From: a virus
Length of the DNA: 36,481 nucleotides
Direction: 5' to 3' (one strand)
IMG/VR virus record: IMGVR_UViG_3300032246_001298
Span: 1-36,481 of that record
Of this stretch, positions 10,137-33,733 are shown one piece after another; within the stretch, counting starts at the first letter, position 1; the number at the start of each line of letters is the position of its first letter. Made by a program: the position numbers and the translations under genes. Under the pieces are notes generated by a model. It saw nothing but the letters and a program-made list of their open reading frames with translations, was not told where the DNA came from and did no database searches.

Positions 10137-10145
10137 ATTATATCA
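10137..10145 (-). promoter_or_regulatory. Extended -10 promoter element TGATATAAT before the SSB gene
   Basis: The minus strand reads ATGTGATATAATGG, TGATATAAT being a perfect extended -10 whose TG comes from the primase TGA stop. The next gene's ribosome site AAGGAG lies 28 bases downstream. A leader with GAGC/GCTC hairpin and the AGAGCATCTACA sequence follows. No good -35 box is seen. Confidence 0.55.
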
Positions 10146-11102
10146 CATAACAGCGTACTCAAAATGCGAAATTGCATTTTTAATACATTGTTTTATTTCT
10201 TCGTCAGTCATATCTCCTACATCTTTTGCAGAATGAGGATACATTACATTGTGGTCATATTTAGCCCACAAAACATTTTTACTCTTTAATTTATTAGCAA
10301 TTGTCATGCCTAAAGATTTACCCGCTGCATCTGCATCAGTCATTATAATAATTGTAGATGCATATTTATTTAAATGTTGAATATTAATATCTGATATGCT
10401 ACCACCTAATGTAGCAACTGCATTTGGAAACCCTGCCTGCCATAAACGAATAGCATCAAAACTAGACTCAACAACAATAATAGTTCCACCTTCACGCTTT
10501 GCCCTATGTAAATTAAACATGGTTTTATTACGTGGAAGATTAGGGCTATTTTTAAATGCTTTGCCTTCAATTGATCTACCAATAATTCCAACTGGAAGTC
10601 CATCTGGTGAATGCAATGGAACTGTAACCATTGCTTGTTTATCTGAGTAACCAAGTTTAAAATGATTAATTGCATCTAAACCTATTTGACGTGAATTAAA
10701 ATACTCTACGGCTTTTGGATTGTTTGCCATATCGCTATACAACTTATCTAAAGTGTCCTGCGAAAATTTTGTAAACTCTGGTTTGTCATCAAGTAAATCT
10801 TTTAACCCATCTTCAAATGCTTCCGCTTCTGTTTGTTTGTTTGAAGATATAAAACGCAAAGCTTCAAAATCATTTCTATTTGTTAATTGTTTTACAAGGT
10901 CTAAAACTGTACCCGATGAATTACAATTTTGATTGTAACAAATATAAAGACCTTTTGAATAACTTACTGCAAAAGCTGGTGAATCAACATTATGATGAAA
11001 AGGGCATAAACATAAAAAGTCTGTTCCTGTTTGTGAAACAATATCAATATTGCAGGAACGCAAAATAGAGCGGAGATCCGCTTTGCTATATGCATCTAAC
11101 AT
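10143..11102 (-). CDS. DNA primase, DnaG-type, lacking the helicase-binding domain
   Basis: This 319-residue primase has an N-terminal CHC2 zinc-binding domain (C33-x2-H36, then C55-x4-C60) and a TOPRIM catalytic domain with E212 (IVVESSFDA) and TDADAAG (D256, D258). The zinc domain recognises template and the TOPRIM domain makes RNA primers for the lagging strand. It is about half the length of bacterial DnaG: the C-terminal DnaB-binding helical domain is missing, so contact with the helicase must be made some other way. The ribosome site AAAGGA is eight bases before the ATG. Three bases separate it from the preceding gene's stop. Confidence 0.93.
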   Translation of the reverse strand: MLDAYSKADLRSILRSCNIDIVSQTGTDFLCLCPFHHNVDSPAFAVSYSKGLYICYNQNCNSSGTVLDLVKQLTNRNDFEALRFISSNKQTEAEAFEDGLKDLLDDKPEFTKFSQDTLDKLYSDMANNPKAVEYFNSRQIGLDAINHFKLGYSDKQAMVTVPLHSPDGLPVGIIGRSIEGKAFKNSPNLPRNKTMFNLHRAKREGGTIIVVESSFDAIRLWQAGFPNAVATLGGSISDINIQHLNKYASTIIIMTDADAAGKSLGMTIANKLKSKNVLWAKYDHNVMYPHSAKDVGDMTDEEIKQCIKNAISHFEYAVM

Positions 11103-11105
11103 TTA

Positions 11106-11387
11106 TTATCCTTTAGGTATTAAACTCTGTCCCGAGAAACCTTCATACTTCAGTGCTTTGGCTTTCCCAAGATAAATCCCGTACATAACTAGGTTGAAGG
11201 TGTAATGATCCTTTTCCTCGTTATATTTTATATTAAATTGTGGCTGTATGTCAAGGACGGGAATATAGCCTTTGTCCCTCATCTGCTGGACTAAAAGCCT
11301 TTCGTAATTCTCTCTAGAGCTTTGGAGTTTGGAATCATCTACAATGGTTCCGCTTATCCAAAAGTCATGTATTTTTCTTGGGTACAT
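11106..11387 (-). CDS. Hypothetical protein (93 aa)
   Basis: A 93-residue protein with alternating strand and helix character: IHDFWISGTIVDD, then an amphipathic helix ENYERLLVQQMRDKGY, then strands VLDIQPQFNIKYNEEKDHYTFNLVMYGIYLG. No catalytic or metal-binding motif stands out. It sits between the helicase and primase genes and is separated from the helicase gene by 50 bases that contain an extended -10 promoter. It could be an accessory replisome protein by position only. The small alpha/beta core resembles proteins I have seen in actinobacteriophages without a function. Confidence 0.7.
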   Translation of the reverse strand: MYPRKIHDFWISGTIVDDSKLQSSRENYERLLVQQMRDKGYIPVLDIQPQFNIKYNEEKDHYTFNLVMYGIYLGKAKALKYEGFSGQSLIPKG

Positions 11388-11408
11388 GGCTGCCTAACTG
11401 TCTTGATA

Positions 11409-11417
11409 ATTATACCA
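11409..11417 (-). promoter_or_regulatory. Extended -10 promoter element TGGTATAAT before the 93-aa gene
   Basis: In the 50-base gap after the helicase gene the minus strand reads CTTGGTATAATTATC, a perfect extended -10. The start point should fall about 7 bases downstream, leaving a leader of about 15 bases before the ATG. It lacks a clear -35 box. It matches the elements at 22437 and 32787 over TGGTATAAT. Confidence 0.55.
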
Positions 11418-11437
11418 AGTTAGCCAGACATTACATA

Positions 11438-12664
11438 TTATCCAATAGGAATATCGTAGACTTCCTTAACAATTCCCCGATTAAGATCCCAATCTAGATA
11501 CATTCCAAATTCGGTTCCATGACGGTTCTTACGACTTACAATCTCCATGATATTGCTATCAGGATTTTTATGGATTGCCATAGCCATATCAGCATCATAT
11601 TCAATAGCCTTAGACCAAGCAACTTGGCTTAGCATTGGCGGTGAATCATGATCTGCTACTTCTTCTGCAGTTGCAGCAGTAATATCAATAATTGGAATGT
11701 TGTTAGACATAGCCAACTTCTTGAAAGACTTTGAAATATTCATGTTACGTTCTGTAGGACCTTTTGAATTTTGATTATCAGCAAATAGCTGGTGATAATC
11801 AAGAATAACAATATCTGGTTTATATTGATCAATCTTTCCTTGAATAACGTTAGGTGTTACTTCACCCATACCCTCATTTGAAACTAAGATAAATTGGTTT
11901 TTGTTGGCAAATTTCTTTGAACCCCAATCATCAAATTGATCAATATTAACATCACCTCTGGCAAAGTCTGATGCCTTAAATAATCCCGACCCCATCATTG
12001 TATAAATACGGTCACGCATATTCTCAGGTGTCATTTCAAGGGATACAATCATTGGTTTAAAGCCCTGTTCCCAGGCTTTGCAGGCCAAATAAGACGAGAA
12101 CCACGTCTTACCCTTACCTGGCCAACCAATCATCACAATAAGGTGTCCTGGAGCCATTCCAGTAGGGTATGCGTAGTCAATAGCCTTGAAGCCTGTCATG
12201 ATTCCTGGGCTTCCGCCCATAGCATCAGAACGATCTTTAATGGCTTGAAAATGTTTTTCTGCCTCTTTATAATCAGTAAGGTCAACGTCTCTAACATTTG
12301 ACGTTAATCTGCCAAGGGTAGCAAGCTCTGTTTGCATTTGAGCAATGACTCTACCTGATGCTTCGGTTTTTAAACTTGCTCCAGATGATAACAATAGATT
12401 ACGTAAACGACTAGCAAGGTATTCATTTTTAAGTTGGTCTAAATAGTAGGCTGTTTCACCTTTAGTTTTAGTTGGTTCAAAATCTTTAAATTTTTCAGTC
12501 AGCACAGAAACATCAGGTACGGCTTTAAACTTTAAATAGTAAGACTTAAGACCCTCCCACACATCTCTGTGTGAAGTAAAGACCTCATCAATATTTCCAG
12601 ACATTACTACGGAAATATCTTTATTCTCACATATTGCTGTGATTACTGCTGATTCTGTATTCAT
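11438..12664 (-). CDS. dnaB: Replicative DNA helicase, DnaB type
   Basis: This 408-residue protein has an N-terminal helical domain and a RecA-like motor domain. Seen in order are FKAIDYAYPTGMAPG, Walker A GWPGKGKT (180-187), SLEM (E210), Walker B DIVILDYHQL (D289), and the late WSKAIEYDADMAM...SRKNRHG with the arginine-finger region. It is a hexameric 5'-3' helicase that opens the fork. I use the ATG at 12664; a TTG at 12679 would add five residues but has a weaker ribosome site. Its start lies inside the end of the 119-residue upstream gene (38-base overlap), which suggests coupled synthesis. The helicase-binding domain absent from the primase would have to be supplied by other proteins, perhaps that neighbour. 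Confidence 0.94.
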   Translation of the reverse strand: MNTESAVITAICENKDISVVMSGNIDEVFTSHRDVWEGLKSYYLKFKAVPDVSVLTEKFKDFEPTKTKGETAYYLDQLKNEYLASRLRNLLLSSGASLKTEASGRVIAQMQTELATLGRLTSNVRDVDLTDYKEAEKHFQAIKDRSDAMGGSPGIMTGFKAIDYAYPTGMAPGHLIVMIGWPGKGKTWFSSYLACKAWEQGFKPMIVSLEMTPENMRDRIYTMMGSGLFKASDFARGDVNIDQFDDWGSKKFANKNQFILVSNEGMGEVTPNVIQGKIDQYKPDIVILDYHQLFADNQNSKGPTERNMNISKSFKKLAMSNNIPIIDITAATAEEVADHDSPPMLSQVAWSKAIEYDADMAMAIHKNPDSNIMEIVSRKNRHGTEFGMYLDWDLNRGIVKEVYDIPIG

Positions 12665-12986
12665 TGTCTCTTTCTTCAACCATAGTTTTTGTTTTAGCTC
12701 TGATTAGCTCACGACGTATTTTGTCTTCTTCAATTTGAGTAAGAGTTAAATCTATTTTCTCAAAGTTATAAAAGAACCACTGAAGTGGGTGGCCTGGACG
12801 AGTAGTTTTAAAATAATACTCTAACAACTCCTTGGCTCTGTCATAACCAATACTATCAATAACATCTTGCATAGCCCACTTCTCACGATAACGATTTACA
12901 ACTGGTGCTTTGCCATAGACCTGCTTATATAAAGCACAATAAAACCCAACTAAACCGTAGGCTAACTTTGCTTCATCCTTGGTCAT
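12627..12986 (-). CDS. Putative helicase-loader-like or replication accessory protein (119 aa)
   Basis: The protein is helical with a conserved aromatic core: AYGLVGFYCALYKQVYGKAPVVNRYREKW and ELLEYYFKTTRPGHPLQWFFYNFEKID, then a charged C-terminal helix (EEDKIRRELIRAKTKTM). It sits immediately before the DnaB-type helicase gene and overlaps it. Phages often place a helicase loader here, and the aromatic helical core is compatible with such a protein, but no sequence motif proves it, and there is no Walker motif, so it is not a DnaC-type loader. I regard the role as inference from position. Confidence 0.65.
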   Translation of the reverse strand: MTKDEAKLAYGLVGFYCALYKQVYGKAPVVNRYREKWAMQDVIDSIGYDRAKELLEYYFKTTRPGHPLQWFFYNFEKIDLTLTQIEEDKIRRELIRAKTKTMVEERDNEYRISSNHSNM

Positions 12987-13192
12987 TTTTTACCTTTAAG
13001 TTCCTGCTCTATCTCGCCAACTTTTTCCATTAACTTTTTTTCTACAAAAGTATATACTCTATTTGTAGCTTCGTCAATAGTTTCACCCTGACGTTGATAA
13101 TCTTCAATTCCAATGCCAACTTTTAAACTTTCAAAATTTCCTAAGTTGCGAGTAAATTGTAAATCAACTTTAACGTTAGTTTGATTCGTCAT
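12983..13192 (-). CDS. Hypothetical protein (69 aa)
   Basis: A 69-residue protein with a beta-rich N-terminal half (VKVDLQFTRNLGNFESLKVGIGIEDYQ) followed by helices, RQGETIDEATNRVYTFVEKKLMEKVGEIEQELK. The pattern LxxNLGNYES...GETxDxAxxRVYxxVE recurs, in my memory, in many actinobacteriophage replication regions, always unannotated. It overlaps the next gene's ATG as ATGA. A link to replication is by neighbourhood only. Confidence 0.7.
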   Translation of the reverse strand: MTNQTNVKVDLQFTRNLGNFESLKVGIGIEDYQRQGETIDEATNRVYTFVEKKLMEKVGEIEQELKGKK

Positions 13193-13415
13193 CTTTCAGG
13201 GTCTCTTCCTTTTCCATTAATGCAAAGCCTGGCTTAAACTTTTTGTGACCCTTATCTGATAAATGTTGATAAAGCATCATTAAGCGATCTGATATTGCTA
13301 TCATAGCATCTAAATCCTCTTTTTGTCCAGCTATCTCCATGGCATATTCCAAAACTCTAATTGCAGCATCAAGAGTTTGTTTTGCTTCTTTACTTAATTT
13401 ATTATTCTCTACCAT
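13176..13415 (-). CDS. Hypothetical helical protein (79 aa)
   Basis: This 79-residue protein is dominated by two amphipathic helices (LSKEAKQTLDAAIRVLEYAMEIAGQ and DLDAMIAISDRLMMLYQHLSDK) followed by a short, acidic tail. The first helix has a heptad-like spacing that could support dimerisation. No signal peptide, membrane span or metal site is visible. It overlaps the preceding HTH gene by 7 bases and the following gene by 17. I do not recognise a function. Confidence 0.7.
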   Translation of the reverse strand: MVENNKLSKEAKQTLDAAIRVLEYAMEIAGQKEDLDAMIAISDRLMMLYQHLSDKGHKKFKPGFALMEKEETLKDDESN

Positions 13416-13957
13416 TCAGGTTGTTTCCAAACTGGACTGAACGTCCCATCATTATTTTTAATATATAAAATATTTTCTTGTCTCATCATAGCTTCTATTT
13501 CCGCTCTACTAGGCATATTTCCTGGATGCACTTCTCCATCATTTCTAGGCCTGCCCCTGTGGACAGTTTTAAAAAACTCATGCATTTCTCTAACATCATC
13601 TTCACTCCAATAGTATTTGCCTGGAGTTTTTTTACCATTTAAAGAATAAACTTGTTGTGGTTTTTTAATATTACCCGCATACAAATGTCTTTTGATCGTA
13701 TCTTCATGTCTTCCAATAATTTTACAAACTTTGGAAAGAGGGTAAGCGTTTTGCATATTTTTTTTAACGTCAGTCAATACAAATGCTACACGCTTACCCA
13801 TCTCGTAATCCCAGGCGACCATTAGATCTTCTGCTCTTGATTGTCTTAAGACTTTATAAAGCTTAGTATTTAAATAAAAATACCGTAACTTTTGTGAAGC
13901 CTTTCCTCGTTTTTTGACAGCCATATACCGAACCTTGAATCTCTCTTGATCATCCAT
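13409..13957 (-). CDS. Helix-turn-helix DNA-binding protein (MerR/excisionase-like domain)
   Basis: The protein has 182 residues. After a basic first third (VKKRGKASQKLRYFYL) it has a winged helix-turn-helix: AYPLSKVCKIIGRHEDTIKRHLYAGNI (71-97), then YSLNGKKTPGKYYWSEDDVREMHEFF, where the wing and following helix fit the MerR/excisionase pattern. The C-terminal HRGRPRNDG motif resembles a basic AT-hook-like stretch. It probably binds DNA as a regulator of early genes or at an origin; the site is unknown. The start at 13957 overlaps the Zn-ribbon gene by 88 bases. An internal ATG at 13924 would shorten the overlap to 55 bases, with AAGG nine bases upstream, so the start is not settled. Confidence 0.75.
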   Translation of the reverse strand: MDDQERFKVRYMAVKKRGKASQKLRYFYLNTKLYKVLRQSRAEDLMVAWDYEMGKRVAFVLTDVKKNMQNAYPLSKVCKIIGRHEDTIKRHLYAGNIKKPQQVYSLNGKKTPGKYYWSEDDVREMHEFFKTVHRGRPRNDGEVHPGNMPSRAEIEAMMRQENILYIKNNDGTFSPVWKQPEW

Positions 13958-14052
13958 CTATTCCCACACATAATGCAATACAGTTCAACACGGATTTTTT
14001 GGGAATAAACCCTGTCTACAAAAACCCTGCCATTACATCTTTTACAATACAT
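13870..14052 (-). CDS. Small CxxC-CxxC zinc-ribbon protein (60 aa)
   Basis: The 60-residue product has a textbook zinc ribbon, C3-x2-C6 and C26-x2-C29, with strands RVFVDRVYSQKIRVELYC between the knuckles. The C-terminus is basic and aromatic. It is the first gene of the replication block after the candidate holin gene and overlaps the HTH gene by 88 bases in a different frame, so the C-terminal half shares DNA with the HTH protein's N-terminus. In actinobacteriophages such a ribbon is often found just ahead of an HTH gene, as I recall. A role in DNA binding or transcription is likely but not shown. Confidence 0.72.
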   Translation of the reverse strand: MYCKRCNGRVFVDRVYSQKIRVELYCIMCGNRWMIKRDSRFGIWLSKNEERLHKSYGIFI

Positions 14053-14071
14053 TATTTAGTTTTTCTTTTTT

Positions 14072-14374
14072 CTACTTAGAAGTTGACTTCTTTGCGCTAA
14101 CCTTCTTAGGCTTTGTAGCCTCATCAAGCTTCTTAGTAACGGCTGATGTTGCAAATTGTGCAACCATGCCAAACGCTGGGTCTTTCTTATTTACATAGCG
14201 TAATGCTACTGGAACAAGAGATGCCCATAGAGAGTTTGCTACTAGCAACCACTCATGTCCGCCAAAACTTGAAATGGCTACATGTGTTGTTGATGCAACA
14301 ATTGTTGCTGCTCCAATAACCTGACCAACCAAATTTCGAACGTAAGATTCAATCATTGCCTGATTAATCTTCAT
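14072..14374 (-). CDS. Small membrane protein, candidate holin
   Basis: This 100-residue protein has two hydrophobic segments, about residues 13-36 (NLVGQVIGAATIVASTTHVAI) and 41-60 (WLLVANSLWASLVPVALRY), then a polar turn (VNKKDPAFG) and a strongly basic C-terminal tail (KKLDEATKPKKVSAKK). Two spans plus a positive tail are typical of class II holins, which open the membrane for the endolysin. No endolysin gene is in this window, so the lysis assignment stays open; it might also be an unrelated small membrane protein. The ribosome site AAGGAG lies 10 bases before the ATG. The leader ahead of it contains a nested inverted repeat. Confidence 0.55.
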   Translation of the reverse strand: MKINQAMIESYVRNLVGQVIGAATIVASTTHVAISSFGGHEWLLVANSLWASLVPVALRYVNKKDPAFGMVAQFATSAVTKKLDEATKPKKVSAKKSTSK

Positions 14375-14400
14375 ATTTTTATTTCTCCTTATTTGTTAGT

Positions 14401-14461
14401 GTAGATGTTGCTCTAACGAGCAGGATTTGAAACCTTTTTTATAATTACTTTTTCCATCTAC
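14401..14461 (-). other. Nested inverted repeat in the leader of the candidate holin gene
   Basis: A 7-base stem (GTAGATG with CATCTAC) encloses 47 bases, and inside it is a 4-base hairpin GCTC-GTTA-GAGC close to one arm. It lies in the 98-base gap between the metallophosphoesterase and holin-like genes. On the plus strand the order (7-base stem, 2-base gap, 4-base stem) mimics the start of a tRNA, but no T-arm or anticodon stem is present. It may be an RNA structure affecting the holin-like gene. Confidence 0.4.
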
Positions 14462-14472
14462 GTATATGTTTT

Positions 14473-15276
14473 CTATAAAGAAAACAATTTCCCATCTACA
14501 AAACAAGTGTAGTCAGGGGAAATTTCTACTATCTGTACATGAGGACGTTGACCGTTCTCAATGTGTGCGATAGCAAAACCTTTTTGCCAATTATGATTTT
14601 GTGTGTATTTCATACCAGAACTTTTTTCATCACACATATGACCAATTTCGTAACCACGAATTGCTCTACCACCAGTTGCTAGTGGTAACTCATATGTTTG
14701 AAAGTGTGAGGCAATTCTATGTGAATGCCCTCTAATTAAAGAAATTTGAAGATCATCAATATCTTTTCTTACTGCACCTGTGTCAGCAATTGAAAGACCA
14801 TGATGAACATGAATATCACCAAAACGATGCTTAGGCAATTCATTATAATAAATATATTCATATCCAAGTGAATCTAAAGACCACAAAGATTCTGGTGTTA
14901 CATCTTTAGCATAGTCTGGAAGCTTCTTATCAATATAATCAAAAATTCTAATATCATGATTTCCTAGTGCAGAAAATAGTTGTGCATCTGGAAGCATGTC
15001 ACGGGTTTTAGCATAAAAGTCTCTTGCTCCCTTTGCTTCGTGTCTCATCATTGGAACAATAAGATCTTTGCTATCGTCTTTATGCAGTTGCAAAAATTCT
15101 GCTGACCTGCCCTCTGTGTATTTACTGTAGCATGCTTGATCATCTGTATCGCCAAGGTAATCTACTACATCTGGTTTAAACCATTTCATAACTTTAAACC
15201 ATAATTCAATAGCCTTGTCATCTTGATATGGAAATTGCTGATCAGATGATAGCATCCATTTTAAATCATTACTCAT
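14473..15276 (-). CDS. Calcineurin-like metallophosphoesterase
   Basis: The 267-residue protein carries the binuclear metal motifs of the calcineurin-like family in order: SDQQ (D12, with Q14 where most members have His), LGDTDD (D43), GNHD (105-108), HVHHG (155-159) and RGHSHR (181-186). The D-x-Q form at motif I is common in phage members, as I recall. It would hydrolyse a phosphomono- or diester; in phages, relatives may be nucleases or nucleotide phosphatases, but the substrate cannot be read here. A sigma70-like promoter (TTGACA/TACAAT) lies just upstream, so this gene likely begins a leftward transcript into the replication region. AAAGGGA precedes the ATG. Confidence 0.87.
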   Translation of the reverse strand: MSNDLKWMLSSDQQFPYQDDKAIELWFKVMKWFKPDVVDYLGDTDDQACYSKYTEGRSAEFLQLHKDDSKDLIVPMMRHEAKGARDFYAKTRDMLPDAQLFSALGNHDIRIFDYIDKKLPDYAKDVTPESLWSLDSLGYEYIYYNELPKHRFGDIHVHHGLSIADTGAVRKDIDDLQISLIRGHSHRIASHFQTYELPLATGGRAIRGYEIGHMCDEKSSGMKYTQNHNWQKGFAIAHIENGQRPHVQIVEISPDYTCFVDGKLFSL

Positions 15277-15302
15277 GTAATCCCTTTCTGGGGGTTTAGT
15301 TC

Positions 15303-15332
15303 ATTGTATCGCATATTGTTGTTTTCTGTCAA
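15303..15332 (-). promoter_or_regulatory. Sigma70-like promoter before the metallophosphoesterase gene
   Basis: On the minus strand a perfect -35 box TTGACA (15332-15327) is followed by an 18-base spacer and a -10 box TACAAT (15308-15303, 5 of 6). It lies in the gap after the HNH gene and its -35 overlaps the HNH stop codon. The start point should fall near 15296, giving a leader of about 20 bases with AAAGGGA as the ribosome site. It is the only perfect -35 box I saw and sits at the border between tail and replication genes, so it likely drives early transcription by host polymerase. Confidence 0.75.
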
Positions 15333-15616
15333 GCAGCGTGTGCTTTATTATGTTCTTTTCTTGAACAAATAAAAAGATTAATTAATCTATTATCAGTCTT
15401 ATCATTATTGATATGATGAATAGTTTCCCAATCTTCTATAATTCTATTTAATTGTTTTTCAATTATAAGGCGGTGTTCATAATACCAACCTTTAAAGTTC
15501 TTAGGATGTTCTGGTATTTTTACCAATACATACCCTTCACGACTAATCTTCCTATCCCGCTTTGTCCAAGCATTGATAGGAATATACACTAAGAACCGAT
15601 TCCTATTGCCATCCAA
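15329..15616 (-). CDS. HNH homing-type endonuclease
   Basis: The protein has an HNH core: EHRLIIEKQL, HHINNDKTDNRLINLF (H-H...N-x6-N) and a final KEHNKAH that completes the beta-beta-alpha-metal fold. This pattern belongs to HNH_3-type homing nucleases, which make site-specific or near-specific breaks and spread their own genes. It is complete at 95 residues from a TTG at 15616, overlapping the lectin-like tail gene by 28 bases. A GTG at 15589 gives 86 residues and a TAGTG stop/start coupling with AGGA upstream, which I find equally likely. It sits at the end of the tail fibre genes, a usual insertion point, and could be a recent arrival. It has no intron around it. Confidence 0.8.
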   Translation of the reverse strand: MDGNRNRFLVYIPINAWTKRDRKISREGYVLVKIPEHPKNFKGWYYEHRLIIEKQLNRIIEDWETIHHINNDKTDNRLINLFICSRKEHNKAHAA

Positions 15617-16556: not shown

Positions 16557-16778
16557 TTAGTTATCTTCTGATAAAGATGTAAGTTCTGCATTAAGTGCAG
16601 TAAGTTGTTTTGTAATCTCAAGGATTTGAGAATTATATCCGTTTATAACATCTTGATCTGGTGATGTTTTTGCATTTTCTTCAATAAGATTGATTTGAAG
16701 ACTATACTTATTAAATTCAAGATTTCTTTGATGAGAATTAATTATATTAATTTTTTCCGCATTTGGTAAATTTGTCAT
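16557..16778 (-). CDS. Small coiled-coil protein (73 aa)
   Basis: A 73-residue protein. Its helical stretches (IINSHQRNLEFNKYSLQINLIEENAK and INGYNSQILEITKQLTALNAELTSL) show heptad spacing, so it may form a coiled coil. I take the ATG at 16778, which has GAAAGGAGG six bases before it. A GTG at 16805 would add nine residues, but it lies in an extended -10 promoter sequence and its codons read through the ribosome site itself, so the ATG is the better start. It is one of three small helical genes between the Ig-rich fibre gene and the lectin-like gene; function unknown. Confidence 0.7.
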   Translation of the reverse strand: MTNLPNAEKINIINSHQRNLEFNKYSLQINLIEENAKTSPDQDVINGYNSQILEITKQLTALNAELTSLSEDN

Positions 16779-16793
16779 TTTGCCTCCTTTCTT

Positions 16794-16802
16794 ATTATAG
16801 CA
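16794..16802 (-). promoter_or_regulatory. Extended -10 promoter element TGCTATAAT before the coiled-coil gene
   Basis: The minus strand reads TGTGCTATAATAAGAAAGG, with a perfect extended -10 TGCTATAAT. The ribosome site AAAGGAGG begins only four bases after it, so a transcript starting at the usual distance would have almost no room for a full ribosome site. That makes the element less sure as a promoter. It may be a chance A/T-rich sequence. Confidence 0.4.
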
Positions 16803-20710: not shown

Positions 20711-21640
20711 TTACAACACCTGAACGTAATATTCAACATCAAGCGGTATGCCATAAATTTTTGCTATTGGTGTTGAAAGAACTGATTTGCTAATTAAATA
20801 ATCTTCATTGGTTAATTCAGTTGTTGTTGAAGCTTTAATAGCATCAATTGTAACAGATGCAGTATTATCTGTTTTTATATTAATAGAATTAATTGTATTT
20901 ATAAAAGAAACATTTGCTGGAAATGGAGCGCTTAAAATTTGATATCCAGAATTATCAGATAATGTATAATTAAACACATAAGAATTATTTTGAACATCTT
21001 TAAATGTAACAGTTAAATTTCCTGCTGCAGTATTATATGCAAGAATTTTTAAACTATCTAAGTCTGAATATCCTAATAAATTAAATCCAAAAGTATTATT
21101 CTCATACATTGTGTTTTGTGCTAGGTCTACTGAGAACCCGCCAATTCTTGGTGAAGCGGAACCTTGAGGAGAATAGCCAGTAATAGAAACTGTTCCTTGA
21201 TCTGTAATGCTTTGTGATTGATCTGAAATGCTTGCAACCCAGTTTGATAAATCTGAAAAATCAGTAATAATTTTATTATTTCTATTTGCAACATCTGTAA
21301 TTCTTGATTCTGGATATAAACCAATTTCATAAATATTTGCATATAAGCTTGCTGGCAATGTGCCTCTTACAATAATTAAATCTGGATTATCAACTGTTGC
21401 AGACTTATAAGTTTTTAAAGTTACTGGAACTCGTGCTGTTTCAAAATTAAGCTCAACATCAGATAAAGATGGTGTGGTATTAATAGCTCCAAAACACATA
21501 TCAGCAGCCCATTCATTTCTTATGCCAGCAATATATTGTAGAAGAACTTTTCTACCATTTGTTGTAATAAGGTTTTCAGATCTACCTATTTCTTTACCAT
21601 CTTGTTTAAATACATAAGTACCTTTAAATTGTAAAGCCAC
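20711..21640 (-). CDS. Minor tail/fibre protein (309 aa)
   Basis: The N-terminus has FKGTYVFKQDGKEIGRSENLITTNGRKVLLQY, the leader seen in phage fibre proteins that carry an N-terminal attachment region, then ANIYEIGLYP. The middle has a carbohydrate-binding-module-like beta region (FGFNLLGYSDLDSLKILAY, then FKDVQNNSYVFNYTL), and the C-terminus ends with a beta strand (IYGIPLDVEYYVQVL). I take the GTG at 21640, which overlaps the preceding gene's end by 17 bases. AAGGCGG lies about ten bases upstream. The exact binding role is not known. Confidence 0.68.
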   Translation of the reverse strand: MALQFKGTYVFKQDGKEIGRSENLITTNGRKVLLQYIAGIRNEWAADMCFGAINTTPSLSDVELNFETARVPVTLKTYKSATVDNPDLIIVRGTLPASLYANIYEIGLYPESRITDVANRNNKIITDFSDLSNWVASISDQSQSITDQGTVSITGYSPQGSASPRIGGFSVDLAQNTMYENNTFGFNLLGYSDLDSLKILAYNTAAGNLTVTFKDVQNNSYVFNYTLSDNSGYQILSAPFPANVSFINTINSINIKTDNTASVTIDAIKASTTTELTNEDYLISKSVLSTPIAKIYGIPLDVEYYVQVL

Positions 21641-22421
21641 TGTATGACACCGCCTTTGTTGTTAAATTAGTATATTTTGCTGCTATTGTAAAAGAATAAC
21701 TTCCATTAAATGATGTACCAGATTTAGGATATATGTTAAAATAATGATATCCGTTAGTTACTGTGGCACCTGTATTCCAAACTTTAGAATTTCTTCCCGC
21801 TGCATTATCTTGATTTTTTCCATTTACTGTAACTTCATAGCCAATAACTCCAGCAACTGCTTTCCATTTTAATTGAATATGACTTCCAATATGTATCGGA
21901 GATGATATTGTTGATTGTACAACTCCAGGTTTTACAGCAGTACTTGTAACAGTTTTTGTTCCCGCAGCATTTGTTGAAGTAGTACCGCCAACATCGTTTA
22001 TTGCTGAAACTACTTGGTGGTTTGAAATATCCGCAACAGCTTCATAAGATATTGTACCATCTGTTGAAATATCATCAGTAGCTGGATCAAAAGTTATATT
22101 TATAGTAATAAGACTGTTTGCATTTGATTGATCATAGCTAGTGTCAGCTGGATTTGTAGCATCCCAATATAAATTGGTTGGGGGATGAAGTGTTGTAGCA
22201 AGAGCTCCACTATCTAATTCTACCTCTGGTGCTACGTTGTTAGTTTTTAAATATTTAAGATATTGTTCATCGCTAAGTATTCTAATTTCTCCAACATAGT
22301 TAGAGATATAAAAAGGATCTTTTGCTCTAGGATCTGATTCATGCAAAATGAGGGTCTTGCGTTTTTGTACGCTTCCCGCTAATCCCGTAACTATTCTGCT
22401 ACTTGAATTGATATCAGTCAT
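21624..22421 (-). CDS. Minor tail protein with Fn3-like C-terminal domain (265 aa)
   Basis: The 265-residue protein has an N-terminal segment of tail-attachment type (KRKTLILHESDPRAKDPFYISNYVGEIRILSDEQYLKYL), then two beta domains: one around TLHPPTNLYWDATNPAD and a second with IQLKWKAVAGVIGYEVTVNG (near residue 195), where the W-x-A-V-x-G-x-x-G-Y-E-V order is a typical Fn3 B-C strand motif. The last domain ends GTSFNGSYSFTIAAKY. It probably sits in the distal tail. AAAGGAGG precedes the ATG, right behind an extended -10 promoter. The role is inferred from context and domain shape. Confidence 0.7.
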   Translation of the reverse strand: MTDINSSSRIVTGLAGSVQKRKTLILHESDPRAKDPFYISNYVGEIRILSDEQYLKYLKTNNVAPEVELDSGALATTLHPPTNLYWDATNPADTSYDQSNANSLITINITFDPATDDISTDGTISYEAVADISNHQVVSAINDVGGTTSTNAAGTKTVTSTAVKPGVVQSTISSPIHIGSHIQLKWKAVAGVIGYEVTVNGKNQDNAAGRNSKVWNTGATVTNGYHYFNIYPKSGTSFNGSYSFTIAAKYTNLTTKAVSYSGFTI

Positions 22422-22436
22422 TTATCCTCCTTTATC

Positions 22437-22445
22437 ATTATACCA
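22437..22445 (-). promoter_or_regulatory. Extended -10 promoter element TGGTATAAT
   Basis: In the 31-base gap between the tail tip gene and the next fibre gene the minus strand reads TGGTATAAT, a perfect extended -10, followed by the ribosome site AAAGGAGG. No good -35 box is seen. It may start a transcript for the fibre cluster. The same motif recurs at other gaps, which is the main reason to believe it. Confidence 0.55.
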
Positions 22446-27110: not shown

Positions 27111-30100
27111 TATCCACCCACCTTATTTTTTGTTCCAGACATTGCTGTTTTTACTCCAGCTTGTGCCAAAGCACCTGATACTGCATTTTTTGCAGCAGAC
27201 TCAAGTTGTTCTGATGTTAAATTGCTTCCATTAATTACAACATTAATTGCTGGAACATTTGCGCCAGTTGTTCCCAATTGTGATGCACTACCATATTGTA
27301 CAGCAGCTGGCATATTTACAGAACCAGCATTGTATGTTCCAAGCTTTGGATTATAATTTTTTAATGCATTCACTTCTGCTTTTGTAAGAGATTTACCTTC
27401 TGCAATTTTTGCTTGGGCATCAGAATACATTTGTCTACCCTTATCAATCATTTGTTGATTTTGATTAGACGTAACATTCATTTGATATTTATCTGCATTA
27501 CCAGCCATTTGTTGACGAAGTAAATTAGCCTTTAAATAATCTCCACTTGCCATTGCTTGTCTGATCTGACCTTGTAAATCTGTTTGCTGTGTAGCATAAT
27601 TTATAGCATCTTGAGCAGCTTGATTTTGTGAATCCATTAATGCTTTTTGTCTTTCAAGCTCTGTAGTTCTTTTATTTTCTAAATCTAAAATTGGCTTATA
27701 TTTCTTTTGAAGAACTGAAATTTTATTTGCAGCAATTTCTTCTGCACTTAAAGGGGTGCCATCAGGCTTTAAGTTTGAATCAGCAGGTTTTTTTGTACCA
27801 GATATTGTAACAACAGCATCAGCAATTTGTTTTAATTTATCAGCAAACTCTTTAGTTCCTGGCTTTAAAGTTGTAAGTTGTGTAAGAAGTGGGGAAGGAT
27901 TTTTTCCAGTTAATTCAGCTAATTTAAAATAATTAATTGTATCAGCAAGTGGCAAATTTAATTTTTTAATTTGATCAGCTGTAGTATTTGTTGTTAATTT
28001 ACTCTTTAATAAAGCATTAATAAACAATGTAGATGCTTGTGTATTACCCTTTAATTTAGATTCAATTGCAGCAAGCTTTTGCTTATATGCATCAACAGAT
28101 GTTCCAGCATCCAGCATGCTCTTGCCAACACTTACTATGTTTTCAGCAAGTTTTCCGCCAATAGTTGTTGTGTCTCTTTTTTTAGCAAATGATGCAACTT
28201 CAGCTTCTGTTCTAGCATACCCTGGTGTTCCCTTTTGATTTTGATTTTGTGAAAGCCAATATGAATCTTGAGCCATTGTTTGTTGTTCAGAATAAGTTAA
28301 ATTGCCAGACTGCATGCCTTCTGCACTTAATAGTTTTTCAGTAGATCCTTTTACATCTTTTGCTTTTCCAGACACTTTGCTGTGTCCTGTTGCAGATAAA
28401 TAAAGATCAATCATTTTTTGTGCTTTTGCTGGATCCATATTTCCTAATGCTACCTGTGCTGCTGCAAAAGATTCAATAATAGATTTAGCTTTTTTATCAT
28501 CAACGCCCTTTAATTGATCAAAAATTAATTTCATAGGATTATCTGGTTTTAATTGATTTATTGAATCAATAAAATCTTTTGTTGCTGATTTAAATGAATC
28601 CATTTTTGGTATCACTGGGGTTAATGCCTTATCAAGATTAATAACTTGAATATTTTCACCAGATACAGCTCCACCAAACATACTTACTGCATCAGCACTT
28701 GCTTTAAAAGTTGCTTCAGCAGTAGCTTTATGTATTTTTTCTGCATTTATTAACTTACTTATTCCGCCTATAAGTCCACCTATTGCAGCTCCCGCTGCAG
28801 CACCTTCAGGTCCTAAAAATGCTCCATAACTTGCACCAGTTATTGCAGCATTAGCAATACTTCCCCCTGGAAGCTTTTCTATTGTTGGTCCAGCAAATTG
28901 TTGTGCTAATTGAAGTCCTAAACCCATTCCAAGACCACTAAATCTTCCTGTCATCATCTTAGGCATTTTAGATTGAATTTTTGCTCTTGTTGCCATTCTA
29001 GCCTGATTAAATTTTGAGAATCTACCTTTAGGTCTTGATGTTGATGCTAGGCCTGGTTCTGTTTCTGTTGCAAGATTTGTATATTCTGATCTAGATCCTG
29101 AAAGCAAAGTTTCTTCCATAACAGAATTTGCTGCTGCTTTAACCTTTGGCTTTGATTCTTTAATTCCTTCTGTAACACCATCAACCATGTTTTTAGCGGC
29201 ACGTTTTGTTGCTTTTGATGGAGATGCCGCACCTGATGCAATATTTAATTCTTTTGCTAAAATTTCTTGTCTTGCTCTTTCTTCACGCTCTGCAACTAAA
29301 CGATTGACCTGTCTTGTTGCAGATGGTCGGAATTGTGGAAGTCCTTGTGGAGAAGCGGTAAATCCTCCCATTTGATCTAATCTCATTCTTTCTGCCATTG
29401 GCAACTCTCCAGCCAATCTTGCACCTGTTACTGCTGACGCACTTTTTACCCAAGGCAAAGTTCGAGATCCAAAATTCTTTCCTGGCTTTAGTTCTCCACT
29501 TGTTACTCTTTTATCAATATCATCAAGTGCAGTTTTAAACAATTTCATTTCTAATTTTTCAATTGGTTGTTTGCCAGTTAAAATTCCTTTTGCTGATGCC
29601 CTTAATTCTGATTCAGAAAAACCTTCATTAACCATTGTTGTTATTGCATTTTCCATTGACTTTCCAAATGCCGCAACATTATTTTTACTATTAGGTCTTG
29701 TTAAAAGATTTAATGATTGATTTTCTGGAGCAGTTAAAGCATACATCTTTGAATAATCGCTCCAATCTTTTGGCATAGCGCCTTCTCTTGGTGCGACGTG
29801 AGATATATTTCCAAACATCATTTCTTTTTCAGATTTGCTAGATATAGACATTCCAGCCGCTCTCATAGAAGCAATTTCTTTAGCAATAATTCCAAGTTGT
29901 GTGTCTCTTACACCTGGCATTGCTCCATATACTCTTTCAGCCTGCGTAAATGCAGAAGAAGGTCTGCTTGATCCACCTGGAGTTATTCCATCTCCATGTT
30001 GTGGCAATGTTCCATTAATCATTGCACTAATAAATGGTCCATATCTCTTTGTTTGTTTTGTAGGTATTACAGATTCGCCACCCATAAGTAAAGCTGGATA

Positions 30101-32131
30101 AACATCTCCATGAGATGGGTTGCCAGGAACAATTCCGCCTGATGCCATTTTTGGTGCCTTAAATGGTATTCTTCCTCCTGCCAATCCCGCTTCTGCTGCA
30201 AGAAGCTTTCCTGCTAAATTAGTGCCAGATGCTGCTGCCATTCCTACAGCCATTCCTTCAAGACTTATAGTAAGTTCTCTTACAGCTTTATTTAAAAGCA
30301 TTACTGCAGTTTCATCTTGTAAAATCTTTTGACTAAATAATTGTGCTGCATTTTGTGAAGCAATAATTTCTGGTGTAAACAATTGTCCAAAAGTTTTAGT
30401 TCCATTAATAAGGTCTTTCATTGAGAATAAGCCTTTAATTAAATACCCAACAAAGTTAGCAAGTACACCAGTAAACATAATAATTGGGCCAGACAATGCT
30501 ACACCTGCTGCAATAATTCCAAGTACTGTTTTGGCTGGTCCTGGAAGTCCGCCAAAAACTTTTGCAATACTATTTCCAAAATTTAACAAAGATGTTGCAA
30601 CTTGCATAATCTTTTCACCTACTGGTAAAAGATCTGCTTTCATTGTTTCTACAGCTCTTCTAAATTTTCCAGTAGTTGATTCGGTAGCGGTTTTTAATTC
30701 GCCTGATGCAATTGAAGCAAGTTGTGTATCTGAAGCATTTGCTAAATCAAAAGCTTGTTTTGTTTGACTATTTACTGCACCTAAATTTGATATAAGTGCT
30801 TGAATTCTTGCCTCTTGATATTTTCCAAAAAGTTTTTCAATAAGTTGAGCTTGAACAAGAGGCTGTAAACCCTTCAATGATTCTTGAAGCATCATAATCA
30901 TTTGCACAGGATTTCCGCCAGTTTTTGTAGCAATTGATGAAAGGCTTATATTGTATTGAGCAAAAGCATCTTTTGCTGCTTTGGTTGGGTTAATAAGTGA
31001 TGCTAAAGCTGATTTAATTGCGTTTGCAGATTGAGCTGCTGGAACACCCGCTTCTTTCATAGCAACCATCATAATTGCTGTATCTTTAAATGATCCACCC
31101 AATTGTTGAACAATTGGTCCAACTTTTGGAATACCTGCTGCTAAATCTTGCAAGCTTGTTGAGGTTTGGTTTTCAACTGCGTTAAGAAAATTTATTGCGC
31201 CAGAGAGCTGTGTTGTACTTAACTTATATACATTTTGTAAAGAAATGGTTGTTTGCATTGCACTTTGCTGATCCATTTCACCAAGTTTTTGCAAACGTAT
31301 TGATTCTCTTGTTGCTCCAATAAGGTCAACGCCTTGCAATCCAGTAGCTGCCAAATCTGCTGCCATTGCTGCAGTATCTTTTACTGCAACGCCCATTCCT
31401 GCAGCCAATTCTTTTGACAAACCAAGAACTTGTTGCTTAATAGATTCTAATGCTTCTTTTGTTGGTTGTTGAATTCCAATTCCATAAACTTTTTGTAATC
31501 TTACAATTTCATCATTAACTTCTTGAAAAACTCTTGTTGCAGTACTTCCAAAAATTGTAAGTGGCACAGTCATACCAACTGTTAATTGACGACCTGCCCA
31601 CTGAGTATTTTTACCCCAGTTAATAAGAGATTGAGTTCCTTTATCAACAGCAATGTTATAAAGATTTTGAGTATTTGCTGCAATTTTTGTAGCATTTGCT
31701 ACGGCATTAATTTTTGTTGGAGTGAATATAGAAAGAACACCTTGTTTTGTAGGGTCTGACATAATCATTGAATTTTGAAGCTTTGTTTGCTCCATAGCAA
31801 GTGCTTTCATTTGAGCAGTTGCGTTTGTTGTACCAGATTTAATTATTTGAAAGTATTGTGTAAGTTTTAATTTACCGTTTACTAATGCCTCGCCAAACTT
31901 ATCTGTTTCAGCTTTAAGCTTAACTGTTTGTGCTGTAAACTGCCCAGTAGAAAGCAATGTTGCTTTAAATGCAGCGTTAGCCTCGTTTAATTGTTTTGCT
32001 AAATTAGCATTAACGCCTACACTTGAAACGCTTTTATTTAAAATGTTTACTTGTTCTTGTAGAGCTTTAATTTGAGAATTAACGGATTTAAAGTCACCTA
32101 AAGCAACTATATTGAGTTCTACTCTTGCCAT
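27110..32131 (-). CDS. Tail tape measure protein (1,673 aa)
   Basis: The N-terminal quarter is helical and coiled-coil (FKSVNSQIKALQEQVNILNKSV), then a TP901-type core appears: ATRVFQEVNDEIVRLQKVYGI, DTAAMAADLAATGLQGVDLI and FKDTAIMMVAMKEAGVPAAQSANAIKSALASL. A hydrophobic block near residues 527-565 (AKTVLGIIAAGVALSGPIIMF) marks the part that enters the host membrane. GGIVPGNPSHGDVYPALLMGGESVIP near residue 667 is another common tape-measure element. A glycine-rich zipper is near residue 1,110 (AAAGAAIGGLIGG). At about 0.15 nm per residue the tail shaft would be around 250 nm. It follows the tail assembly chaperone, as usual, and overlaps its end by 13 bases. Confidence 0.95.
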   Translation of the reverse strand: MARVELNIVALGDFKSVNSQIKALQEQVNILNKSVSSVGVNANLAKQLNEANAAFKATLLSTGQFTAQTVKLKAETDKFGEALVNGKLKLTQYFQIIKSGTTNATAQMKALAMEQTKLQNSMIMSDPTKQGVLSIFTPTKINAVANATKIAANTQNLYNIAVDKGTQSLINWGKNTQWAGRQLTVGMTVPLTIFGSTATRVFQEVNDEIVRLQKVYGIGIQQPTKEALESIKQQVLGLSKELAAGMGVAVKDTAAMAADLAATGLQGVDLIGATRESIRLQKLGEMDQQSAMQTTISLQNVYKLSTTQLSGAINFLNAVENQTSTSLQDLAAGIPKVGPIVQQLGGSFKDTAIMMVAMKEAGVPAAQSANAIKSALASLINPTKAAKDAFAQYNISLSSIATKTGGNPVQMIMMLQESLKGLQPLVQAQLIEKLFGKYQEARIQALISNLGAVNSQTKQAFDLANASDTQLASIASGELKTATESTTGKFRRAVETMKADLLPVGEKIMQVATSLLNFGNSIAKVFGGLPGPAKTVLGIIAAGVALSGPIIMFTGVLANFVGYLIKGLFSMKDLINGTKTFGQLFTPEIIASQNAAQLFSQKILQDETAVMLLNKAVRELTISLEGMAVGMAAASGTNLAGKLLAAEAGLAGGRIPFKAPKMASGGIVPGNPSHGDVYPALLMGGESVIPTKQTKRYGPFISAMINGTLPQHGDGITPGGSSRPSSAFTQAERVYGAMPGVRDTQLGIIAKEIASMRAAGMSISSKSEKEMMFGNISHVAPREGAMPKDWSDYSKMYALTAPENQSLNLLTRPNSKNNVAAFGKSMENAITTMVNEGFSESELRASAKGILTGKQPIEKLEMKLFKTALDDIDKRVTSGELKPGKNFGSRTLPWVKSASAVTGARLAGELPMAERMRLDQMGGFTASPQGLPQFRPSATRQVNRLVAEREERARQEILAKELNIASGAASPSKATKRAAKNMVDGVTEGIKESKPKVKAAANSVMEETLLSGSRSEYTNLATETEPGLASTSRPKGRFSKFNQARMATRAKIQSKMPKMMTGRFSGLGMGLGLQLAQQFAGPTIEKLPGGSIANAAITGASYGAFLGPEGAAAGAAIGGLIGGISKLINAEKIHKATAEATFKASADAVSMFGGAVSGENIQVINLDKALTPVIPKMDSFKSATKDFIDSINQLKPDNPMKLIFDQLKGVDDKKAKSIIESFAAAQVALGNMDPAKAQKMIDLYLSATGHSKVSGKAKDVKGSTEKLLSAEGMQSGNLTYSEQQTMAQDSYWLSQNQNQKGTPGYARTEAEVASFAKKRDTTTIGGKLAENIVSVGKSMLDAGTSVDAYKQKLAAIESKLKGNTQASTLFINALLKSKLTTNTTADQIKKLNLPLADTINYFKLAELTGKNPSPLLTQLTTLKPGTKEFADKLKQIADAVVTISGTKKPADSNLKPDGTPLSAEEIAANKISVLQKKYKPILDLENKRTTELERQKALMDSQNQAAQDAINYATQQTDLQGQIRQAMASGDYLKANLLRQQMAGNADKYQMNVTSNQNQQMIDKGRQMYSDAQAKIAEGKSLTKAEVNALKNYNPKLGTYNAGSVNMPAAVQYGSASQLGTTGANVPAINVVINGSNLTSEQLESAAKNAVSGALAQAGVKTAMSGTKNKVGG

Positions 32132-32762
32132 TCATCCCCCTCCATTTGCATAAAGCCAAGCCCTTCATTTATTCCAAAACCTTCGCTTTGTGCAACTCTT
32201 GCAGAATTTAAATCAGTAACATCATTTATTACTTCTTCTTCATTTTGCTCGTCTAAGTCTACTCCGTTTATAGCTGCAGCAAACTTTTTATCATTGTTAT
32301 CCTTACTTCGAATTGCTTCAATAGTTGCCATTAATTCTTCTAATGATAAACTTTCTTCCAATTCTTCATAATTCTTCCAACGACCTAACAAGAAAACTTC
32401 GGACTCAAGGGAGCGTAGGTCTAGTCCGTCCCAACTAGTGCCGCTCCCAGCAGGTTTGGGTCTGTTAGCTTTAATCCACCAGCAATTTCTAAAATCTTCA
32501 TCATTGTTGGAATCTCAACTACTTCTTCAAACTTGTCTCTATCTTTTCCTAGGTCTGAGTTTGGATATAAACCTGCAATGCAAACCATTGCAGCATCAAT
32601 AAATATATCCATTGCTGCATCTTCTGATGCATTTTCTGGCAGATCCATTCTCTTAATAAGTTCCATGAACTGTCTAAGCTTCTTGATTGGAAGAGGCTTT
32701 AATGTGATAGACTCACCATTTGATAGTTCAATATCTACTACGTCATATACTGTTGTTGCCAA
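32119..32762 (-). CDS. Tail assembly chaperone, -1 frameshift product (GT-like, 214 aa)
   Basis: The second tail assembly chaperone frame has no ribosome site of its own and is open upstream through the slippery sequence, so it is made by a -1 shift. Reading 103 codons in frame 0 to AAC and then re-reading one base gives PAGSGTSWDGLDLRSLESEVF, then LLGRWKNYEELEESLSLEELM and a charged C-terminal part (214 residues in all). The SWDGLDLRSLE and RWKNYEELEESLS segments are typical of the extension in actinobacteriophages, in my recollection. The longer form bridges the tail tube protein and tape measure during assembly. The end overlaps the tape measure ATG by 13 bases. Confidence 0.86.
32421..32762 (-). 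CDS. Tail assembly chaperone, short form (G-like, 113 aa)
   Basis: The 113-residue protein of the lambda G type. It opens VYDVVDIELSNGESITLKPLPIKKLRQFMELIKRM and continues with MDIFIDAAMVCIAGLYPNSD and EEVVEIPTMMKILEIAGGLKLTDPN. The beta then helix arrangement and the position between major tail protein and tape measure genes are what is expected. The stop is at 32421. Most ribosomes should make this short form, a smaller share the frameshifted one. The start is at 32762; upstream lie AAAGGAGC and an extended -10 promoter. Confidence 0.86.
   Translation of the reverse strand: MATTVYDVVDIELSNGESITLKPLPIKKLRQFMELIKRMDLPENASEDAAMDIFIDAAMVCIAGLYPNSDLGKDRDKFEEVVEIPTMMKILEIAGGLKLTDPNLLGAALVGTD
32454..32460 (-). 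promoter_or_regulatory. Programmed -1 ribosomal frameshift slippery site CCCAAAC
   Basis: On the minus strand the heptamer is read C CCA AAC in the zero frame, the canonical X XXY YYZ form with X=C, Y=A, Z=C. The -1 frame stays open for 111 codons after it, while the zero frame stops 10 codons later at TAG. The downstream base-paired element was not folded by me. Confidence 0.88.
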
Positions 32763-32786
32763 TTTATAGCTCCTTTGTTTAGTTAA

Positions 32787-32795
32787 ATTATACCA
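32787..32795 (-). promoter_or_regulatory. Extended -10 promoter element TGGTATAAT
   Basis: The minus strand reads TATTGGTATAATTTAAC between the terminator hairpin and the tail assembly chaperone gene. TGGTATAAT is a perfect extended -10. A partial -35 (TTGTGT, 3 of 6) lies 16 bases upstream. Initiation would fall near 32780, about 17 bases before the ATG, leaving AAAGGAGC as the ribosome site. With the terminator directly upstream it resets transcription for the tail genes. Confidence 0.62.
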
Positions 32796-32820
32796 ATAGA
32801 ATGAGCATACACAAATTCAA

Positions 32821-32844
32821 GACCCCGTCATTTCTGACGGGGTC
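32821..32844 (-). terminator. Rho-independent terminator-like hairpin, GC-rich
   Basis: A perfect 10-base-pair stem (GACCCCGTCA with TGACGGGGTC) closes a four-base loop. On the minus strand the stem is followed by TTGAATTTG, a T-rich but broken run. It lies 35 bases after the major tail protein stop, and a weaker AT-rich hairpin with TTTTTT sits before it. It should stop or reduce read-through of the major tail transcript. Confidence 0.85.
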
Positions 32845-32862
32845 CGAATATTATTAAATTGT

Positions 32863-32888
32863 TAAAAAACTAACTTAATTAGTTAGTT
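32863..32888 (-). terminator. AT-rich hairpin with T-run at the major tail protein stop
   Basis: An 8-base-pair inverted repeat (AACTAACT with AGTTAGTT, loop of five) spans the stop codon of the major tail protein and is followed on the minus strand by a run of six T. It has few G-C pairs, so it would be weak alone, but it precedes the strong GC hairpin in tandem. Confidence 0.5.
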
Positions 32889-33631
32889 CCCCATACACGA
32901 TCAATTACAACACCATATTCAGAACCAGCATAGCTAGCCTGTGAATCATCTGGTAGGCAACGGAAGCTTACTGGGAATACAGTAGCTGAATCACGCTTTA
33001 ATCCGTGAGCAGTTGTATCCATAGAAACAACACGACGTGCAATGTATACACGCTCTTTATTTGCCAAAGCAGATGTGGTTGGAGTAACATTCTTAACTTG
33101 AGCTGGAGCATTTCCAACTGCAACAAGAGTGCGCTCTACTGGAGCATCTCCAAGAGCACCAGCTGCCATATTTAAAGTTGTACCAACTTCTGATCCACCA
33201 ACTGGTGTTACATCAGTCATTGAGCTAACTGCAGTAATTGAGCTACCTGTTTGGTTTACATAATATGTATCCATCTGACCCCATGAAAGAGTAAGATTGT
33301 CTAGGGTTGCTTCTACTAATTCTGTCTTAAGTGTAACCTTAAGTGTTTGCTTAAATAACTTTGCTGCATCTAGCAACTGGTCAACCATTACTTCACCGTA
33401 ACTTGGTTCGTAAGAAATTTCTAAACCTGAATTTGTGTAACCAACTTCACGGTACTTAGAGCCTGTTGCAAGTAAACCTGTACGTGCTGAAGCACCTGCA
33501 GATAGAAAACCACCATTTGCTGTTGTACCTGTAATAATTGCGTTTGTAGTTGCTGGACGTGCTGTATCTTCTTGAGAAGATATGAAAAGCGACGCTGCAC
33601 CAACAATAACATTTTTTGTATTTGTAGCCAT
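32879..33631 (-). CDS. Major tail protein (tail tube subunit, 250 aa)
   Basis: The protein has 250 residues. It is rich in A, T, G, V and S with few lysines in the central region, as in other tail tube subunits. It opens MATNTKNVIVGAASLFISSQ, then shows GYTNSGLEISYEPSYGEVMVDQLLDAAK, a beta-hairpin and strand segment seen in tail tube proteins of the siphovirus kind, FKQTLKVTLKTELVEATLDNLTLSWGQ, and ends with ARRVVSMDTTAHGLKRDSATVFPVSFRCLPD. The gene is between the tail terminator and the tail assembly chaperone, as expected. It has its own promoter and a terminator, in line with its need for high copy number. AAGGTGG precedes the ATG by 13 bases. Confidence 0.9.
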   Translation of the reverse strand: MATNTKNVIVGAASLFISSQEDTARPATTNAIITGTTANGGFLSAGASARTGLLATGSKYREVGYTNSGLEISYEPSYGEVMVDQLLDAAKLFKQTLKVTLKTELVEATLDNLTLSWGQMDTYYVNQTGSSITAVSSMTDVTPVGGSEVGTTLNMAAGALGDAPVERTLVAVGNAPAQVKNVTPTTSALANKERVYIARRVVSMDTTAHGLKRDSATVFPVSFRCLPDDSQASYAGSEYGVVIDRVWGTN

Positions 33632-33662
33632 TTTTTTATTTCACCACCTTATTTGAATTAAA

Positions 33663-33686
33663 TTAAAAATCAAAAAAAGATGACAT
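33663..33686 (-). other. Possible 7-codon leader ORF (MSSFFDF)
   Basis: Inside the transcribed leader of the major tail protein the minus strand reads ATGTCATCTTTTTTTGATT and ends in TAA, encoding MSSFFDF. A good ribosome site, GAGGAAG, sits five bases before the ATG. It is shorter than most genes but has better ribosome spacing than the major tail ATG itself. It could be a leader peptide, a translation pacing element or chance. Confidence 0.35.
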
Positions 33687-33705
33687 ATTTACTTCCTCAT
33701 GTAAA

Positions 33706-33733
33706 ACTATAGCAGGAATGTTTAATAAGTCAA
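33706..33733 (-). promoter_or_regulatory. Promoter before the major tail protein gene (TTGACT / TGCTATAGT)
   Basis: A -35 box TTGACT (33733-33728, 5 of 6), a 16-base spacer and an extended -10 TGCTATAGT (33714-33706) lie in the 106-base gap after the tail terminator gene. Both boxes and the extended TG agree with a strong sigma70-like promoter. The transcript would carry a leader of about 65 bases that includes the 7-codon ORF. It explains how the major tail gene could be expressed above its neighbours. Confidence 0.75.

Follow-up and report, generated by a model that had tools for sequence, protein, structure and literature searches.

Extended -10 promoters, in which a TGn triplet precedes the -10 hexamer, are an established class of sigma-70 promoters that escapes AsiA, a T4 protein acting on region 4 of sigma-70 (PMC2988021). 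Region 4 of SigA is bound by WhiB7 (PMC3905903), and a study of Nanopelagicales phages treats a WhiB-like protein as one key sign of actinophages (PMC10202952). A separate class of promoters directs the RecA-independent response of actinobacteria to DNA damage; it is controlled by PafBC and has the consensus tTGTCRgtg - 8 nt - TannnT, ClgR having also been proposed to act at the host DNA-damage promoter (PMC5656591). Single-stranded DNA activates PafBC, whose PafC subunit makes contact with domain 4 of SigA (PMC11804915). Our literature searches found nothing on the promoters of the phage family considered here, and nothing linking PafBC to phages.

The window analyzed here is a 36.5 kb IMG/VR fragment (IMGVR_UViG_3300032246_001298) whose genes all lie on the minus strand, with accessory genes at the left, replication genes in the middle and tail genes at the right. 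Matches to PHROGs families include a UvsX-like recombinase, a DnaE-like polymerase, a single-stranded DNA-binding protein (SSB), a primase, a DnaB-like helicase, a RuvC-like resolvase and a tape measure protein. The best relative among isolates, though a distant one, is the Streptomyces phage BillNye (Stanwilliamsviridae), which shares the order of the replication genes and has a polymerase 57% identical to that of the window. A WhiB-like protein is encoded in 9 of 9 relatives tested, and the sequences read contain four cysteines and a GV-W/R-GG turn. Because of the relatedness to BillNye and this WhiB-like protein, we infer that the host of the window phage is an actinobacterium; a search of genome contigs for a host returned one contig in a bin labelled as a cyanobacterium, which we take to be a binning artefact. 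Here we describe a set of putative extended -10 promoters in this phage group, together with a second class of candidate promoters on the opposite-strand arm of its longer relatives.

Motif sites in the window and its relatives

A first-pass annotation of the window proposed that TGnTATAAT marks nearly every gap of 30 bases or more in an otherwise closely packed operon. The five exact sites that it listed and the variant TGCTATAGT were found at the coordinates and on the coding strand that it gave:

10137..10145, minus strand: extended -10 TGATATAAT of the SSB gene (9414-10091), exact match, predicted +1 near 10130
11409..11417, minus strand: extended -10 TGGTATAAT of gene 11106-11387, exact match, predicted +1 near 11402
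16794..16802, minus strand: extended -10 TGCTATAAT of gene 16557-16778, predicted +1 near 16787
22437..22445, minus strand: extended -10 TGGTATAAT of gene 21624-22421, predicted +1 near 22430
32787..32795, minus strand: extended -10 TGGTATAAT of gene 32421-32762, predicted +1 near 32780
33706..33714, minus strand: extended -10 TGCTATAGT with TTGACT 16 bases upstream, major tail gene 32879-33631, predicted +1 near 33699

Several of these sites are interlaced with coding signals. The TGA of TGATATAAT at 10137 doubles as the stop codon of the primase gene, the Shine-Dalgarno sequence of gene 21624-22421 begins at about the +1 of the 22437 promoter, and the site at 16794 falls within the longest possible reading frame, yet upstream of an ATG preceded by AAGGAGG. 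The annotation had divided the six downstream genes into structural and replication genes, which is accurate for SSB (10137) and the major tail gene (33706) and partly overstated for the remainder: gene 11106-11387 lies upstream of primase in the replication cluster with its family unassigned, while 32787, 22437 and 16794 precede unassigned families in the tail region, gene 32421-32762 being placed ahead of the tape measure gene. The interval 32119-32762 holds two small genes before tape measure, the second without an ATG start, which are a probable pair of tail assembly chaperones joined by a frameshift.

Eight true gaps of at least 30 bases are present in the window, and the motif occupies six of them; of the two without it, 15277-15328 carries TTGACA-N18-TACAAT and 14375-14472 neither kind of sequence. 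The statement that the motif marks the few gaps needs qualifying, because two conserved gap promoters lack TGn and one conserved site is inside a gene. TGnTATAAT occurs eight times on the coding strand and never on the opposite strand, five of the eight in the scarce gap sequence and the other three within genes (2394, 5336 and 34412). In the window alone the signal is one of strand and location; the total is not significant, with 8 matches against a mean expectation of 4.2 and 8 of 100 shuffles reaching 8.

The comparison of gaps, genes and randomized sequence that the annotation had suggested was decided at the level of the family, using the window and 20 related contigs (21 in total), with genes in the relatives called by a simple codon-based caller made for this analysis. 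Within co-directional gaps of the 21 contigs, 186 sites are in the sense orientation and 2 antisense (93:1), against a gap-sense expectation of 8.5 +- 2.6 under a first-order Markov model built on these gaps. Densities are 1.52 per kb for gap sense, 0.02 per kb for gap antisense and 0.049 per kb for coding sense, so that, far from being as frequent in genes as in gaps, the motif has a 30-fold excess in gaps. When the letters of TATAAT are placed after TGn in each of their 20 possible orders, the hexamer TATAAT accounts for 186 matches and the runner-up for 17. About half of the family's gaps of 30-300 bases (304 of 555) have no recognizable promoter.

The motif is also conserved in orthologs. 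TGnTATAAT lies upstream of 32 of 40 SSB orthologs (all 40 have TGnTAnnnT), 41 of 42 orthologs of gene 11106, 15 of 20 of gene 16557 (16 of 21 in a recount), 9 of 10 of gene 21624 and 48 of 48 of gene 32421. Upstream of the major tail gene, TGnTAnnnT is found in 51 of 51 orthologs, mostly as TGCTATGAT with a TTTGA-like -35 region. For seven gapless control genes (dnaB, polymerase, gene 22453, tape measure, gene 33738, uvsX and primase), TGnTATAAT was found upstream of none of the orthologs. The position of the motif at orthologous sites is fixed and its flanks are variable; it has therefore been kept by selection and not by recent descent. Gap enrichment and ortholog conservation rule out chance or composition as its source in the family.

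Three further sites in the window, none of them among the six above, extend the set:

2394..2402, minus strand: intragenic extended -10 TGCTATAAT in the RuvC-like gene 2117-2677, exact match, conserved
5884..5889, minus strand: conserved -10 TATAAT lacking TGn, located 8 bases ahead of the ATG start of gene 5621-5875
15303..15332, minus strand: metallophosphoesterase gene 14473-15276, conventional promoter TTGACA-N18-TACAAT, the best -35/-10 match in the window

The motif at 2394 is exact in 27 of 31 unique RuvC-like orthologs, synonymous positions included, and the strongest window of synonymous constraint in this gene falls upon it (0 of 1000 permutations). The constraint runs about 7 codons past the hexamer. 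The site is probably an intragenic promoter of the downstream HTH and glycosyltransferase genes, as judged from its sequence and conservation; possibly the constraint reflects some other overlapping element. The other two coding matches, 5336 (kept in 5 of 62 orthologs) and 34412 (11 of 91), lack a synonymous peak and are attributed to chance. The gap 5876-5895 has TATAAT in 32 of 36 orthologous upstream regions, usually as TATAATATAAGTATATG, the signature of a near-leaderless promoter at 5884, and upstream of the metallophosphoesterase the -35/-10 pair is found in 35 of 38 orthologs and TGnTATAAT in 0 of 38.

Promoter architecture and the polymerase that would read it

Where a start site would be expected, 7 bases after the hexamer, 140 non-redundant gap sites have a purine in 81% of cases and a YR step in 50%. 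Apart from the base directly following the hexamer, no position from 9 to 23 has a stronger peak of this kind; weighting by 51 downstream gene families gives a YR frequency of 44%. A cluster of 7 sites has its ATG precisely at the predicted +1, suggesting leaderless messages. The annotation's statement that most sites lack a -35 box was borne out, although 33706 has TTGACT: a -35 match of 5/6 or better occurs in 17% of promoter families compared with 2% at a control spacing, and in the -35 region only the T at -35 is favored (59-64%). The features that define an extended -10 promoter of the sigma-70/sigma-A type are thus found in the sequence: TGn directly before the hexamer, most sites without the -35 box that such promoters do not need, and the expected signature at a start about 7 bases downstream.

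The proposal that these are phage promoters read by the host polymerase emerged as the best explanation from the phylogenetic, strand, spacing and start-site tests. From the observed location, strand, enrichment, conservation in orthologs, spacing and start-site signature we infer, with a probability of roughly 0.9, that the motif represents active sigma-A-type extended -10 promoters, read by the RNA polymerase of the host together with its housekeeping sigma factor. Sigma would read TG at -15/-14 and TATAAT at -12 to -7, and with both contacted a -35 box would be unnecessary; transcription would begin about 7 bases after the hexamer, with short leaders. Such promoters would re-start or boost transcription at chosen genes of a single-strand, nearly gapless arm, namely SSB, the small gene before primase, the major tail gene, the gene behind it and other tail genes.

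Host RNA polymerase with its main sigma is probably the enzyme involved because the phages appear to have no sigma-70 factor of their own. The sigma-70 region 2 domain (PF04542) was found in none of 21 phage records, several longer than 80 kb and some of them fragments; applied to 14 control genomes, this search recovered it from 10, and a phage-encoded sigma was accordingly rejected as the reader of these promoters. A phage-modified holoenzyme is an unlikely alternative, in which binding of the phage WhiB-like protein to region 4 of host SigA weakens recognition of the -35, so that extended -10 phage promoters prevail, as with T4 AsiA on sigma-70. The presence of the protein in every relative tested, the binding of WhiB7 to region 4, the immunity of TGn/-10 promoters to AsiA and the scarcity of -35 boxes are all consistent with this arrangement. 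However, conserved promoters of the same arm (15303-15332 and 33706) have a good -35, which argues that its use is not abolished; WhiB7 itself activates at promoters having a -35, and an unmodified sigma suffices for extended -10 promoters.

A different function could be imagined for the 11409 site, where TTGRTATAATTATCAA is nearly self-complementary in many relatives. A dyad across this promoter might act as a T4-like lock, with read-through RNA folding so that the gene 11106 start is masked and translation is confined to the local transcript. This is very improbable, and a locked late promoter hairpin of the T4 type was rejected, since the conserved, covarying hairpin over the start region that would define it was not found at 11409: the consensus fold of 42 sequences is unstable (-0.25 kcal/mol, z -0.9), compensatory changes are lacking, and the outer 5' arm varies freely. 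In the roughly 20 bases upstream of 11409-11417, an element resembling TATGTAATC/G and unlike TTGACA is located at about -35 before gene 11106 in nearly all relatives.

That the motif simply arises from AT-rich leaders and from stop and start codons, and has no function, is scarcely credible: TATAATG can arise at start codons, the TGA of TGATATAAT is the preceding gene's stop codon in 14 of 61 such cases and the window count alone is compatible with chance, but none of this accounts for the 93:1 strand ratio in gaps, the preference for TATAAT over its rearrangements, the fixed positions amid variable flanks or the synonymous constraint within ruvC.

Elements in the leaders and gaps

Predicted leaders or gaps next to three of the promoters contain additional elements:

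10112..10126, minus strand: SSB mRNA leader hairpin GAGC-ATCTACA-GCTC, just after the predicted start
32821..32844, minus strand: GC-rich hairpin GACCCCGTCA-GAAA-TGACGGGGTC, after the major tail gene and before the 32787 promoter
33662..33685, minus strand: possible leader mini-ORF ATGTCATCTTTTTTTGATTTTTAA (MSSFFDF) upstream of the major tail gene, preceded by GAGGAAG

The SSB leader hairpin has a 4-bp stem with 99% of cells paired across 41 sequences, including two pairs changed on both sides (G-C to A-U), and could be a stabilizer or an SSB autoregulatory site. In the neighboring primase gene (10143-11102), the first codons show the gene's highest synonymous constraint among relatives (0 of 1000 permutations). 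At the position of the 32821 hairpin, the relatives listed have a hairpin with changed yet complementary arms, a candidate terminator or 3' stabilizer. In 44 of 48 orthologous major-tail leaders a start codon follows GAGGAA, often opening a frame of variable length that encodes M/L-S-S-F. Another conserved leader, seen in relatives, is a hairpin ACAGRATGCC..GGGTYCTGAATTTAAC right after the extended -10 and about 60 bases before the gene (for example G007:73181, G015:38760 and G017:27403, as 0-based strand positions).

A candidate second promoter class and comparison with known systems

Long relatives bear a block of short genes on the opposite strand, and the promoters of this block have TGTCRG exactly 10 bases before TANNNT:

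Opposite-strand arm of G003, G005, G006, G008, G017, G018, G023 and G025: second-class promoters, for example L251 and L305

Of 55 TGTCRG-N10-TANNNT gap sites in relatives, 54 are on the minor strand, and 49 of them also have TG at -15/-14. Other spacings tried gave 1-6 gap sites each except for 18 at spacing 5, a peak that arises mostly because an upstream TA in these sites is read instead. At least 120 viral stretches contain ATGTCAGACCC-N3-TGnTATAAT, and none has it with one extra spacer base; at least 120 likewise contain the literal form TGTCAGTG-N5-TGnTATAAT. Genes downstream of ATGTCAGACCC-N3-TGnTATAAT belong to 22 families among the matches listed, and among 40 carrier contigs a WhiB gene is present in 28 and a gene for a relative of the window polymerase in 21.

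The fixed spacing of TGTCRG is that of the PafBC-controlled promoters, and no match to TGTCRG-N10-TANNNT was found in the gaps of the window, whose promoters are accordingly not of this type. No WYL protein was found in 8 records or in the 40 carrier contigs, which led us to reject a phage-encoded WYL regulator; host PafBC would therefore be needed, and the relatives may use it for the opposite-strand arm. Another activator of the same site, such as ClgR, could possibly drive these promoters instead. An early timing for this arm is guessed from the shortness of its genes and from their lying on the opposite strand. We tentatively suggest, at somewhat less than an even chance, that the phages maintain two promoter sets on host sigma, a plain extended -10 set on the arm seen in the window and, on the opposite and probably early arm, copies of the PafBC promoter with TGn added, where host PafBC, once activated by ssDNA, would turn on phage genes by way of sigma adaptation. 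If true, these phages would exploit the damage alarm of the host as a trigger. The second class is a lead that lies outside the verified finding in the window; if confirmed, it would couple the expression of phage genes to the response of the host to DNA damage and could provide a sequence tag for actinophages.

Compared with the PafBC promoters of the host, the opposite-strand sites have the same core letters and the same distance from TGTCRG to TANNNT, and differ in adding TGn and in often having TGTCAGACCC in place of TGTCRGTG. BillNye also has extended -10-like sites in its gaps, including TGGTACAAT between primase and SSB. Unlike the window family, it has a GC content of 53% and a genome of 127 kb, and its motif is weaker, with TACAAT and TATACT beside TATAAT; a scan for PafBC-type sites in it found none. 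T4 early and middle promoters are likewise phage promoters on host sigma that include TGn, and the T4 set has its own extra boxes, whereas the window promoters have no shared upstream box. The sites described here make up what is apparently the first promoter map, derived from sequence, of a widespread environmental actinophage group seen mainly in metagenomes, with start sites predicted to the base and one of them within a gene. The promoter class is already known; what is new for these phages, as far as the searchable literature shows, is the set as such, the site inside a gene and the arrangement in two arms. With the extended -10 sigma-70 promoters described to date, the sites in the window share TG at -15/-14, TATAAT, a predicted purine start about 7 bases downstream and a dispensable -35; those of the window family sometimes re-use an upstream TGA stop codon or sit within a gene. 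Nothing essential differs from that class, which here dominates a whole phage arm.
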